64,000 nt of DNA from Acetobacteraceae bacterium (GTDB lineage: Bacteria > Pseudomonadota > Alphaproteobacteria > Acetobacterales > Acetobacteraceae): NCBI GenBank assembly GCA_024280945.1, contig JAMXLO010000146.1:62001-126000 (forward strand), written 5' to 3'. Below, one piece after another: positions 60,311-64,000 of the stretch (position 1 is the stretch's first letter; each line of letters starts with the position of its first letter). The translations under genes and the position numbers were made by a program. The notes beneath the pieces are model-generated. The model was not told the origin of the DNA. It made no database searches and saw nothing but the letters and a program-made list of their open reading frames with translations.

Positions 60311-62215
60311 CTAGTCTTCAGGGAGCCCCGCCCGTCGTAGCCCCTCCGCGTAAAGATTCCGATCGAGCAATCGCGTCATAGGTGATCGCTCGATAGCGCT
60401 CCTGACACAAAAGCCCGGCTCCAGTTCGAGCAATCGTGCCATCACACGGGCTGCCTCCCGCTCGCGTCGGAGTTGTCCGAGCGTAGCCAGGTATCCCTTA
60501 TAGGTCGAGGTGAAGCTTGGATTCAGCTCCATAGCCCGACGCCCGGACGAGAGCGCCTTCTCTAATTCGCCGCGCAAGAAGTATGGCATCATCAGCGCCA
60601 TGTCGAAGAAGAAGGCATGTGGATCGTGCGGTGCAAGGGTTTGCGCCCAAGTGATCTGCTTGATGGCCTCTTCGTGCAGACCGAGATAGCACAGGGCGAG
60701 ACCGGAGTAGCACCAGGCGAGCGGCAGACCTGGGTTCAGCGAGAGCGCTCTCTCGTGCAGAGCACGGGCTTCCTCGGGCCGGCGATCCAAATATGCGCGC
60801 ACGTGGCCGACCAACGACAGAGCTCGGGCATCGCCCGGATCGAGTGTGACAGCCCGTTCAGCCAGCTGCCTCGCACGGAGCGCTGCTGCTGATGGATCCG
60901 GCGCCCAAGCCTGTCCAATCAACAGCACATTCCAATAGGCGCACCAAGCATGTGCCGCCGCATTTGCAGGGTCCAATTCGATCGCCAAAGCCAGCAACTC
61001 GCCAGCAGCTTGGAACCCTGAAGGCTCCAGTCGATAAATCGAGGGGATGGCGCGCAACGTTAGATCGAATGAGGTCGGAGTGACCAGCGGCTTGGCACCA
61101 CGACGCTCACCTTCGCGAAGTAGCATTTGTGGGTCGATCTGTGCGGCTGTCTCTGCAGCAATGGTGTTCTGCAGGCTCAGTAGATCGGTAACCTCAGCAT
61201 CGTGGCTGCGAGCCCAAACGACATTATTGCCGGAATGGAGGTCGAGCAGCCGGACGATGACGCGTACTCGATTGCTGCCGCGCTGAAGCGTGACATCCAG
61301 CATGTAATCGGAGTCAGGAGCGGGGGATCCTGTTTCACCCTGTGCCGCACTCACGCTGCAGGCGATCCAGCGGAAGCGCGAGATGGCCACCGACAGTTCT
61401 TCAGCCAGGCCCGGCATCAGTCCAGCTGCCGTACCGCTGCCCAACGCTCGCAAGGGAAGAACCCGCAAGCTGACCCGCTGATCGGTGCTTGCCGATTTGG
61501 CAGAAGCTAAGGGAGGTATTTCGGGTTCCGAGGCGCCACGGAGCAGTTCGGATGTTTCACGAGAGGGCAGCAAGCCAGCGCTGGCCAAAGTATTCAGGCA
61601 TCGCTCGTACGTGAGCCGTGCCGCCGTGCGATCACTCAGCTCCAGGTTCGCGCGGATCAGAGCCTGCCAGCCGCCTTCGTGTGTTCGTTCGATTGCCAGC
61701 AGCTGCTCCGCAGCATCGCGCCGGTCATTGGCATTCTGTGCCGCGACCAGCGCCGCTTCGGCAAGTTGAATGCCTCGATGGACTATCTGCCGACGCTGCT
61801 CGGCCAACCAGACTTCGAATGCTGGATCGAGCCCGTCCAGGTCTTCCAGCAAGGGGGCTCGAAACATCCTCAGGTCAATAGGCTGCCCAGCGGTGGTGGA
61901 TGCCAGCACGCGCGTGTCGAGCCATAAGCGATCATCGAGCAGTCCGAGGTGATCCCGGGTCGTTCGCAATAGAGATACAGCACCAGCACCCAGCGCATGC
62001 TGCAGCTCGTACACTGATTGGCGAAGCGACCCCCGGCCCTGCTCGATAGCGCGACCACTCCACAACAGCCGCGTCAGTCGTGTGCGGAGGACCGGCTTGG
62101 GTGCGGCCAAAGCCAGCACCGCCAGCACAGCTCTCGTCTTACGGGATCTCGGCAGGATGTTCCGACCTACCTCATCTTCGGCTTGCATCTGCCCGCACAG
62201 CGTAAGGCGCAGCAA
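60311..62215 (-). CDS. SARP/BTAD-type regulator with TPR repeats
   Basis: 634 residues. The N-terminal ~95 residues have a winged-helix-like segment (RKTRAVLAVLALAAPKPVLRTRLTRLLW and GSLRQSVYELQHALGAG) as in SARP-type regulators. A BTAD-like helical repeat domain follows (~100-230), then a TolB-like/FlgO-like region (residues ~250-350) including SDYMLDVTLQRGSNRVRVIVRLLDLHSG. The C-terminal ~250 residues are TPR repeats (LDPANAAAHAWCAYWN, LNPGLPLAWCYSGLALCYLG, LNPSFTSTYKGYLATLGQL). It is likely a transcription regulator sensing a ligand or protein; no target shown. Divergent from the YeiH-like exporter gene. Confidence 0.8.
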   Translation of the reverse strand: MLRLTLCGQMQAEDEVGRNILPRSRKTRAVLAVLALAAPKPVLRTRLTRLLWSGRAIEQGRGSLRQSVYELQHALGAGAVSLLRTTRDHLGLLDDRLWLDTRVLASTTAGQPIDLRMFRAPLLEDLDGLDPAFEVWLAEQRRQIVHRGIQLAEAALVAAQNANDRRDAAEQLLAIERTHEGGWQALIRANLELSDRTAARLTYERCLNTLASAGLLPSRETSELLRGASEPEIPPLASAKSASTDQRVSLRVLPLRALGSGTAAGLMPGLAEELSVAISRFRWIACSVSAAQGETGSPAPDSDYMLDVTLQRGSNRVRVIVRLLDLHSGNNVVWARSHDAEVTDLLSLQNTIAAETAAQIDPQMLLREGERRGAKPLVTPTSFDLTLRAIPSIYRLEPSGFQAAGELLALAIELDPANAAAHAWCAYWNVLLIGQAWAPDPSAAALRARQLAERAVTLDPGDARALSLVGHVRAYLDRRPEEARALHERALSLNPGLPLAWCYSGLALCYLGLHEEAIKQITWAQTLAPHDPHAFFFDMALMMPYFLRGELEKALSSGRRAMELNPSFTSTYKGYLATLGQLRREREAARVMARLLELEPGFCVRSAIERSPMTRLLDRNLYAEGLRRAGLPED

Positions 62216-62451
62216 GGGTCCGGCGGCAACCGGTCCTTCGACGTCGGCCAGCTGTCGGGCGTGTAGCAGGTTGATGACAGACCCCTTCCCAACAATAATG
62301 TCTTACAACCTGAAGTAGATCATATTGTGGAAAATGCTAGCAAAAGGCGCAATTGGATGCAAGCTTGCCCCGCGGTCTGGGCAGTTCGGCGTGTGCGGCA
62401 CTTCGGGCTATAGTTCGCGTAGGCGGCAATGCGGAGGGTGGTTCGTTATCG
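62216..62451. promoter_or_regulatory. divergent intergenic region, BTAD regulator / exporter
   Basis: About 236 bp between divergent starts. It has A/T-rich patches (gtagatcatattgtgg, 62308-62335) that could include both promoters. No clear inverted repeat that would be the regulator's operator was recognised. Confidence 0.3.
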
Positions 62452-63507
62452 ATGGCATCACAGCAAAACCTCGCTCTCTCTCTCCCACGTCGCGTTGCGA
62501 TCGCCGCCCGGCTGCGACCGACGATTGGCCTCTTGCTTTGCATCGCGATTGCCGCGGTGGCCACTGCGGCCGCAGCCTATGCACCAGTCGTTGGCGCCCC
62601 GGTTATTGCCATCGCGCTTGGGGTCCTGATCACCAACACTCTTCGCGGACCGCTGCAGATCAGCAAGTTGGCTATTGGTGACGTCAGCAAGTTGTGCCTC
62701 AAGGGTGGCATTATTCTGCTAGGGGCCAGCCTGGATCTGGGCGTGATACTTCGCACAGGAGCCGCCTCGCTCCCGGTACTGATCACGACCATTGCCGTTG
62801 GACTGGCCTGCGCACTCCTGCTCGGTCGGGCGATAAGTGTTGAATGGCGGATGCGGTGCCTGATCGGGATCGGCACCACGATCTGCGGAGCATCCGCCAT
62901 AGCTGCTTTGGCACCTGTTGTTCGCGCTAAGGCGGAAGAGATCGCCTATTCGATCTCGGTGATCTTTTTTTTCAACATGCTTGCGGTCTTCATTTTCCCG
63001 ACAATTGGCCATTTCATTGGGCTGACCGGCCCCGGCTTCGGATTGTGGGCTGGCACAGCGATCAATGATACGTCAGCCGTTGTTGCAGCTGGCTTCGCTT
63101 ATAGTACGGATGCAGGCACGATCGCGACGATCGTGAAGCTCACGCGCACCACGTTGATCATACCATTGGTCGTAGGGTTTGGACTGCTGATGCCGTGGTT
63201 CGAACCAAGCCCGGCGCAACAGAGCAATTCACTGGCGCAGCGCGCCTATCAGGCTGTACCCGTTTTTATTATTCTGTTCGTGTTGGCCTCATTCCTTAAC
63301 ACGCTGGGTCTGCTGGGCGATTGGGCACCTAAAGTGCAGATTCTCGGGCGCTGGGTCATGGTGGTGGCGCTCGCGGCAGTCGGACTGCAAGGCCACTGGC
63401 GTGCTTTCACCGGCGCAGGAGCCCGTCCCCTGTTGCTGGGCCTCGCAACCTGGATCGCGGTTGCCCTGGCGAGCCTGACGATACAGGTCTGGACCAACAC
63501 CCTATAA
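62452..63507 (+). CDS. YeiH family putative sulfate exporter
   Basis: 351 residues from ATG 62452. About ten membrane helices, with VVGAPVIAIALGVLITN, KGGIILLGASLDLG and the conserved IGIGTTICGASAIAALAPVV, matching the UPF0324/YeiH family. Members are annotated as sulfate exporters or as carrying small anions. No good ribosome binding site at close range; the frame is open to 62353. Divergent from the BTAD-TPR regulator. Confidence 0.88.
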   Translation: MASQQNLALSLPRRVAIAARLRPTIGLLLCIAIAAVATAAAAYAPVVGAPVIAIALGVLITNTLRGPLQISKLAIGDVSKLCLKGGIILLGASLDLGVILRTGAASLPVLITTIAVGLACALLLGRAISVEWRMRCLIGIGTTICGASAIAALAPVVRAKAEEIAYSISVIFFFNMLAVFIFPTIGHFIGLTGPGFGLWAGTAINDTSAVVAAGFAYSTDAGTIATIVKLTRTTLIIPLVVGFGLLMPWFEPSPAQQSNSLAQRAYQAVPVFIILFVLASFLNTLGLLGDWAPKVQILGRWVMVVALAAVGLQGHWRAFTGAGARPLLLGLATWIAVALASLTIQVWTNTL

Positions 63508-63690
63508 GATATGAAAATTTTCCTTGACACGTTACCTGCGTTCCAGTAACGAGGTCGCGTCAACGGGCGTAGTCTGTCCGTAATCCCGAAAACGTAAGCC
63601 GGCCCAATCGCCTATCCGCGGCGCTGACCGGCGTTTACGCGTGTCGAGAAATACGCCCGTTGGCATTAAGTCAGAAGAGGAGACCTCAGA
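63508..63690. promoter_or_regulatory. intergenic region with candidate promoter upstream of small ORF
   Basis: A TTGACA at 63524-63529 has the hexamer TAACGA 17 bp downstream (63547-63552), a weak sigma70-like pair. A purine-rich AGAGGAGA stands 63676-63683, close before ATG 63691. The pair would give the small ORF and the next gene their own transcript. Weak evidence. Confidence 0.35.
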
Positions 63691-63783
63691 ATGACGCCAT
63701 CTACTTTGCCCGCAACCAGCGACACCGGCCGCATCCGCCTCGGCGCAGGCTGGCGGCTGCCTTCCACCAAGCCCTCTCGCTGA
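63691..63783 (+). CDS. 30-codon small ORF with strong ribosome binding site
   Basis: Encodes a 30-residue basic peptide beginning MTPSTLPATSDTG and ending SRLGA-type Arg/Gly/Trp-containing residues (GRIRLGAGWRLPS, then KPSR). The AGAGGAGA site eight bases before ATG is among the best in the window, which favours translation. No signal peptide, membrane helix or family is recognised. It is followed ~55-90 bp later by the start of another plus-strand gene, so it could be a leader peptide, a small structural or signalling peptide, or a modified-peptide precursor. No function is claimed. Confidence 0.5.
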   Translation: MTPSTLPATSDTGRIRLGAGWRLPSTKPSR

Positions 63784-63836
63784 TCTCGGGCAGCTCTCGA
63801 GGCGCTTCACCGGAGGATCGCCGGTGAGGCGCAGTC

Positions 63837-64000
63837 GTGCCCTGGTACGACCTGAATACGGAGTGGCGAACCATGACCCGCTCGAGCCGCCCGATAGTGC
63901 ATTTCTACCGGCTGATCGACGAAGCGCGACTACCACAGCGGGCTGATCGGTCAGCGGCAGGCACATTGCCCACGCGGGCCTATCGTTATTGCGAGGCGGT
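63837..64000 (+). CDS. protein N-terminus running off the window, possibly DUF6065-like
   Basis: Open to the last base. Starts may be GTG 63837 or ATG 63873 (MTRSSRPIVHFYRLID). The first residues continue EARLPQRADRSAAGTLPTRA and then YRYCEAV. I recall a similar N-terminus (IVHF...R.C.) in uncharacterised proteins called DUF6065, but this memory is uncertain and the domain is mostly outside the window. It follows the 30-codon ORF on the same strand and may share its transcript. Confidence 0.5.
   Translation, partial: MPWYDLNTEWRTMTRSSRPIVHFYRLIDEARLPQRADRSAAGTLPTRAYRYCEA

Follow-up and report, generated by a model that had tools for sequence, protein, structure and literature searches.

Multi-core RiPPs such as the cyanobactins and graspetides are specified by a short precursor ORF that lies beside the gene for a dedicated partner, with tandem copies near the C-terminus of the precursor and a copy number that varies. 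The two-gene locus described here resembles them in each of these respects. In most RiPPs, the repeated part is variable; here the unit is conserved, which is the reverse. The locus also resembles the peptide-leader attenuators in that a short ORF is found 5' of a longer gene. A search of the literature for DUF6065, PF19541 or the unit string KVRLGG found nothing, and the peptide family is undescribed.

The window, meaning the whole 64,000-nucleotide stretch that was analysed (G000:C146:62001-126000), breaks off inside the second gene of the pair. Because the contig runs past the window this gene could be read whole in an overlapping stretch (L003, C146:124000-140000; window coordinate = L003 + 61999). 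The features discussed are collected in Table 1.

Table 1. Features at the right-hand edge of the window (window coordinates).
Feature	Position	Strand	Basis
Divergent regulator, weak N-terminal winged-helix match and TPR repeats	60311..62215	-	
YeiH-type (PF03601) transporter gene, start codon uncertain	62353..63507	+	profile match
RBS-like sequence AGAGGAGA	63676..63683	+	read from sequence
Gene for 30-aa peptide of the D-x-G-[KR]-[IV]-x-[LFV]-G repeat family	63691..63783	+	ORF list, conservation, selection
Single conserved unit DTGRIRLGAGWRLP within the peptide	63721..63762	+	column frequencies of 123 units
12-bp hairpin between peptide stop and DUF6065 start	63802..63832	+	folding; whole gap z -1.87
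Start of DUF6065 (PF19541) gene, 259 aa	63873..64000, on to stop at window-equivalent 64652 (L003:1874-2653)	+	profile match

The peptide gene and its repeat unit

A sequence-only reading of the window had drawn attention to the small ORF in front of another gene at the window edge. The ORF, which encodes the peptide MTPSTLPATSDTGRIRLGAGWRLPSTKPSR, is present as claimed and is a real gene, conserved as a protein-coding sequence. By its sequence alone it is ordinary for its size: 89 ORFs of 25 aa or longer lie wholly or partly in the last 6 kb of the window, and the RBS-like 8-mer in front of it occurs twice in the window, as it does at least twice in 35 of 100 shuffles. It is lifted above chance because it is conserved. 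The same reading placed a candidate -35 box (TTGACA) about 100 bp before the ORF and credited the downstream gene with its own promoter. The hexamer in fact lies at 63524-63529, about 160 bp before the ORF; it is found 13 times in the window against an expectation of 20, and a promoter scan of 62400-64000 found no -35/-10 pair, so that the promoter claim is left without support. The distance to the downstream gene was put at about 55-90 bp; its ATG at 63873 is 89 bp past the stop of the small ORF, and an in-frame GTG is at 63837.

There is no T-tract after the hairpin in this gap, and Rfam gave no match at the locus. Among relatives of the locus, the gaps between peptide stop and DUF6065 fold with a mean z of -2.46 (36 of 62 loci below -2), the 140 nt 5' of the peptide start with a mean z of -2.05 (32/63 below -2) and the 140 nt 3' of DUF6065 with a mean z of -1.11 (15/74 below -2); these sets exclude any locus that contains N, has a short gap or has a doubtful ORF. 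Since the stretches 5' of the peptide fold almost as strongly as the gaps the hairpin is regarded as unspecific and no function is claimed for it. The stable folding 5' of the peptide start may perhaps reflect terminators of preceding genes or 5' structure.

Relatives of the DUF6065 protein are encoded in 259 stretches of GTDB contigs, of which the best 80 were kept. An upstream short ORF carrying the unit D-x-G-[KR]-[IV]-x-[LFV]-G-[GA] or a clear variant was seen in 72 of these best 80 of 259. Four more have less than 190 bp of upstream DNA (L101, L104, L124, L144) and four show no unit despite enough upstream DNA (L077, L145, L150, L152). The count of 72 was made partly by eye and with a wider pattern, L077, L145 and L150 being removed as false and L085, L143 and L151 added. 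When a fixed motif was sought in the 900 bp upstream it was found in 58 of the best 80 of 259 loci, compared with one of 80 on the reverse strand of the same DNA, two of 80 downstream and 0.95 of 80 in mononucleotide shuffles. Conservation of the small ORF 5' of homologues of the downstream gene, which the earlier reading had proposed as a check, was thus found in 72 of the 76 testable loci (best 80 of 259). The peptide is under purifying selection, with a pooled pS of 0.344, pN of 0.136 and pN/pS of 0.40 for 27 close pairs, hand-picked and non-independent in that they share sequences; pN/pS is below 1 in 27/27 pairs and is 0.38 for the window against L076. The peptide is therefore a conserved protein-coding gene.

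A guessed recognition core, written GIRLGAGW in the sequence-only reading and standing as GRIRLGAGW in the peptide, coincides with the conserved unit as judged by column frequencies. In most of the window's bacterial family the unit has the form D-x-G-[KR]-[IV]-R-[LF]-G-[GA]-[GA]-x-R-L-P, and in other groups it is K-V-R-L-G-x-M-[AS]-P-A-F-like. Across 123 units, counted as distinct within each of 66 peptides, columns 1-7 hold D (88%), A/T/S (30/20/18%), G (86%), K/R (41/38%), I/V (56/43%), R (65%) and L/F (71/13%), and columns 8-14 hold G (99%), G/A (55/37%), G/A (65/15%), a variable residue (F 22, A 18, Y 12, M 12, C 10%), R (75%), L (59%) and P (61%); because of the anchor and score by which units were chosen, the D, G, V/I and G columns among the first nine are in part imposed, and the last five are not. 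Outside the window's bacterial family the unit retains its first half and differs in its second, giving the variants KVRLGNMSPAFKV in three genomes of one other family, KVKLGMMAPAFG in another family and DDGKVHIANKSPAFDI in Rhizobium sp. WSM4643, where the repeat peptide is annotated as hypothetical protein WP_170279615.1 and lies sixteen bases 5' of DUF6065.

The peptide in the window has one unit and relatives have tandem arrays. Of the 66 peptides counted, 21 have one unit, 31 have two and 14 have three to ten, with the units near the C-terminus and preceded by an N-terminal part (median 15 aa before the first unit) that is not obviously conserved. The array of L278 has 9.5 copies of 42 bp and that of L151 has 17.6 copies of 51 bp with 94% matches, running from the first base of its contig. 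Several arrays break assemblies. Those of L095, L134, L141, L149 and L151 are interrupted by runs of N or start at a contig end, and their unit counts are therefore lower bounds.

The DUF6065 partner and its predicted fold

The downstream gene had been taken for an uncharacterised gene whose N-terminus resembles no characterised enzyme. It belongs to DUF6065 (PF19541), a family without known function. The window protein matches positions 85-179 of the 236-position profile (E 1.5e-12; 47.9 bits, cut-off 26.6). PF19541 is matched by 71/71 members of the protein set, two other families match one member each, weakly, and no match to the dUTPase family PF00692 is listed for these 71. The window protein has no match in NCBIfam, and a search of the PDB by sequence gave only single matches, at E 0.58 and 0.7.

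An AlphaFold2 model of the monomer was built from 71 homologues with L076, a relative 77% identical to the window's DUF6065 protein, as first row (pLDDT 87.5, pTM 0.79). The best PDB matches of this model in Foldseek are dUTPases, with 3ecy_A at E 8.8e-5 and a TM-score of 0.37 by query length and 0.75 by target length, and a second structure comparison (VIA) gave Z 11.8 and an rmsd of 3.0 across all 119 residues of a dUTPase chain; the match spans 119 of the 259 residues of the model. Similar viral predicted structures are unnamed phage proteins and dUTPases. An hhalign comparison of the profile of this DUF6065 branch with 30 dUTPases was not significant (P 0.18), with WTGLMARTATDWSLLIRAPANLPSPGGFTMYEGIVESD aligned to the dUTPase motif 2-3 region. 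A dUTPase-like beta-clip fold is predicted with good confidence.

Read by eye against the dUTPase motifs, motif 1 keeps AAG and loses its metal Asp, motif 2 is changed from PRSG to RAPAN, the Asp of motif 3 is replaced by Glu and the Gln of motif 4 is retained. Motif-like stretches LPQRADRSAAG, GIVETDRWFG and PLAQ follow one another in dUTPase order (by eye). The catalytic motif 2 PRSG and motif 3 Asp of trimeric dUTPase are absent from the branch in alignments A2 and A3, again by eye (A2 contains 71 of 76 proteins; the earlier A1 contains 39 of 41, L046 and L055 being left out). Because the motifs are altered, the likeness to dUTPase is one of fold, and the name dUTPase should not be applied to the protein. 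Ordinary dUTPase genes are present in 38 of 40 genomes searched, including that of the window. Residues R35, C40, E115, R138, N142, D159, N168 and R170, among others, are invariant in the DUF6065 proteins and look like a functional site, which makes us lean towards an enzyme.

A quick tree of 93 DUF6065 proteins, in which some branches are long, separates the peptide-linked branch from eight canonical members at 100 SH-aLRT. This branch includes L234 and L280, with no peptide known for either, and the canonical set consists of 18 of 30 found by a pattern, eight of these being in the tree. When the unit type of the adjacent peptide was placed on the tree (75 typed rows: 46 RLP-like, 14 xPx-like and 15 other), six changes were needed, compared with a mean of 26.6 and a minimum of 22 in shuffles, 0 of 200 being as low; typing was from the unit alone, L149 is mistyped owing to masked bases and near-copies inflate the clustering. 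The peptide pairs with one branch of DUF6065, and within that branch the type of the unit goes with the phylogeny. L280, on plasmid pMl1 of Sinorhizobium medicae, is a very remote DUF6065 relative with amidohydrolase, methyltransferase and S8 peptidase genes close by, and the gene directly upstream of it is not a repeat peptide. The canonical loci L167, L173 and L177 have a long C-terminal extension, with ORFs of 549 to 571 aa.

Distribution and gene neighbourhood

The DUF6065 protein has matches in 36 of 147 genomes, the window's own included, 31 of them strong (at least 233 bits), and a peptide model of 10 rows has matches in 33 of the 147 at E up to 0.01. Both are present in 28 genomes, DUF6065 alone in 3, the peptide alone in 2 and neither in 114 (Fisher p 2e-24, uncorrected for kinship). 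G013, G072 and G127 were left off the peptide list because their matches sit in long frames; with these kept as peptide-only genomes p is 9e-22. The three DUF6065-only genomes (G005, G087, G129) were counted as misses, yet a peptide is visible by eye in them, and in the two peptide-only genomes (G082, G083) the peptide lies at a contig end. The peptide model also gave four weak matches, on G064:C2, G006:C13, G028:C74 and G052:C47.

Two orphan peptide loci could be read away from contig ends: in L258 the peptide adjoins a regulator without DUF6065 and L257 is a lone array. Their genomes have DUF6065 elsewhere, one gene in G015 and two in G057, where one of the two shows no motif. The gene in G015 is the sole DUF6065 of this branch in that genome and is without an adjacent peptide, the peptides being elsewhere, an arrangement that fits a substrate on which the partner acts in trans. 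The window's genome has a second pair (L060, G000:C151:6405-7499) whose peptide has three units, of the GGFAPSL type; a gene that by eye is TldD-like begins about 2.2 kb before this pair.

The pair is found again in other alphaproteobacteria, and also on a phage-like contig. In a class-level set 5 of 385 genomes (the window's own included) match the peptide-linked branch at E 1e-20, canonical DUF6065 being commoner with PF19541 matches in 46 of the 385, and in a phylum-level set of 398 genomes the window's own is the sole match at E 1e-10. Among plasmid records two match the window protein and four match the L233 protein, the relatives being named 'DUF6065 family protein'. On a plasmid of Rhizobium sp. 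SRDI969 repeat peptide and DUF6065 are directly followed by an annotated MFS transporter, and on one of Rhizobium sp. WSM4643 by two pieces that by eye resemble one MFS transporter; an MFS gene after the pair was noticed only in Rhizobium. None of 50,697 phage records matched the window protein or the L233 protein. IMG/VR gave 19 loci with the branch. In 17 of them the contig ends no more than 2 kb away on the side of the peptide, and these 17 may be host/prophage borders. With the filter used, the peptide was found in 9 of the 12 IMG/VR loci that have at least 250 bp upstream and not in L229, L231 or L234. In L233, within a contig of 81.6 kb, the peptide is 6 bases 5' of DUF6065 and about 1 kb 5' of a gene named by eye as terminase-like.

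Neighbours were counted in the best 80 of 259 relatives with flanks of up to 5 kb and often less. A homologue of the regulator lies beside the pair in 60 of these 80; in 8 of them it is downstream, and in the other 52 it is divergent and upstream. With 20 matches to the regulator family in the 6.4 Mb of the window's genome, adjacency at this rate is, judged from that density, far above chance. Within about 5 kb of the pair no regulator homologue was found in three genomes of another family; one is present in L278. In the same best 80 of 259 a YeiH-type transporter gene, upstream as in the window, is near the pair in 20, a receiver-like gene in 24 (23 downstream) and a terminase in 4. A degenerate receiver-domain-like protein is encoded directly after DUF6065 in the window's contig (L003:2662-3213, minus strand), and a phage-like block with terminase, portal and other genes begins at L003:3870 (window-equivalent 65869), about 1.2 kb past the DUF6065 stop; the same terminase is found 1.8-2.1 kb after the DUF6065 start in L076, L085, L087 and L094. 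A TldD-like gene (named by eye) was considered as partner protease and rejected, as it is near the pair in 3 of the best 80 of 259 and upstream in 7 of 41 loci, possibly as ordinary synteny. Neither the gene clusters common to the 41 loci, which were named by eye, nor the eight neighbours sought in the 80 included a RiPP enzyme of known type, a leader peptidase or an exporter that is conserved. The PADLOC anti-phage models returned 0 families for six proteins. A search of six or seven repeat peptides for a recognised precursor family gave scattered noise below cut-off and one match above cut-off, to PF11736, in which no stretch passed.

Possible functions of the pair and comparison with known systems

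A small gene that multiplies its units, has copies away from its partner and changes its unit in step with DUF6065 favours reading the peptide as a RiPP-like precursor and DUF6065 as its dedicated partner, which is probably an enzyme. We hold this reading tentatively, at slightly short of an even chance, and contact, modification, chemistry and product are what we infer rather than observe. The small ORF would be a precursor-type peptide with the conserved unit as its business part. The DUF6065 protein, with its predicted dUTPase-like beta-clip fold and remodelled active-site motifs, would be the dedicated partner; its recognition would probably be directed at the unit and not at an N-terminal leader, and it would modify or process each copy. 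A divergent winged-helix/TPR regulator often lies beside the pair. The four loci with DUF6065, enough upstream DNA and no visible peptide count against this reading. So do the short N-terminal part of the peptide, the conservation of the repeated unit where most RiPPs vary, the lack of any known RiPP enzyme, leader peptidase or conserved exporter among the neighbours compared, and a dUTPase match confined to 119 of the 259 model residues. To our knowledge, no peptide-tailoring enzyme has a dUTPase-like fold. It is possible, though we doubt it, that the pair represents a new peptide-tailoring class in which a repurposed dUTPase-fold protein is the only dedicated enzyme, its former triphosphate-hydrolase pocket acting on D-x-G-K-V-R-L-G units, and in which the unit has been duplicated up to at least 17 times to multiply the product. 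In a variant of this idea the peptide would be a detached active-site arm. What reaction this might be, for example the transfer of a nucleotide part to peptide instead of water, is pure speculation, unlike the pairing and the fold prediction.

The strong conservation of the unit resembles that of a binding motif. In this alternative the units would dock unmodified on DUF6065, the site being perhaps the former nucleotide pocket of its dUTPase-like fold, and a multivalent scaffold, inhibitor or activator would be the role of the array. It would suit a fold from a family working as trimers, the lack of conserved export and protease genes in the loci compared and the agreement between unit type and the DUF6065 tree. 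Arrays that occur as orphans at a distance from DUF6065, and a copy number that varies widely, do not suggest a subunit of fixed stoichiometry. We regard docking as a less probable but serious candidate, and the evidence favours, and does not prove, the RiPP-like precursor and enzyme over it. Of the three options offered by the sequence-only reading, leader/attenuation is unsupported and peptide modification is favoured, if unproven, over a small binding or regulatory protein.

The frequent adjacency of the regulator (60/80, best 80 of 259), and its occurrence beside the L258 peptide without DUF6065, are suggestive of signalling, with the peptide or its product sensed by the winged-helix/TPR protein and DUF6065 as maturation or carrier protein. 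This is unlikely given that the regulator family is so numerous in the window's genome and that the search of about 5 kb around the pair found no homologue in the three other-family genomes. Less likely still is a structural repeat protein, the array forming a beta-solenoid or amyloid-like structure with DUF6065 as chaperone or cap. AlphaFold2 did build a beta-solenoid from the 10-copy L154 array alone (pLDDT 81.1 and pTM 0.73; 79.4 down to 59.0 for the remaining four models), which would suit such a protein. AlphaFold2 is reported to fold perfect repeats of random sequence into beta-solenoids and is unreliable in single-sequence mode on near-perfect repeats (PMC11795689), and the L154 solenoid was discounted for that reason; moreover, 21 of the 66 counted peptides have one unit only. 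Leader/attenuation, in which translation of the small ORF would control downstream transcription, has the position of the ORF and the hairpin in its favour and is rejected as highly improbable in view of selection at the amino-acid level over whole peptides, tandem duplication of the unit, orphan copies away from DUF6065, the lack of a T-tract after the window's hairpin or an Rfam match and gap folding that is little stronger than that 5' of the peptide.

The DUF6065 branch is found, as strong matches, in 31 of the 147 sampled genomes (the window's own included), and also on two rhizobial plasmids and on phage-like contigs, and the pair offers a concrete assay for one branch of a family without known function. 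If this is a peptide-modification system, it would add the dUTPase-like fold to peptide tailoring, and its precursors would have the recognition element in every repeat. Should the pair be a binding system instead, it would still be an undescribed two-gene family whose function is testable with two small genes.

Unlike the multi-core RiPPs, the pair showed no known RiPP enzyme, protease, conserved exporter or obvious conserved leader in the loci compared, and its partner is a protein of predicted dUTPase fold. It is placed in no known RiPP class, as there was no match to any RiPP enzyme or precursor family already known. The trimeric dUTPases (PF00692) share with the L076 monomer its predicted fold and motif-like stretches in the right order, but the DUF6065 branch has no significant match to their profile and has replaced PRSG of motif 2, the metal Asp of motif 1 and the Asp of motif 3. 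Canonical DUF6065 proteins (PF19541 core members) are homologous to the branch (hhalign probability 98.6%, E 1e-15), whereas the unit motif is absent from both strands in 29 of 30 of their loci and occurs once, in L168, with flanks of up to 1.5 kb. In contrast to the ORFs of peptide-leader attenuators, the short ORF here is conserved as a protein, duplicated in its unit and found also elsewhere in genomes.
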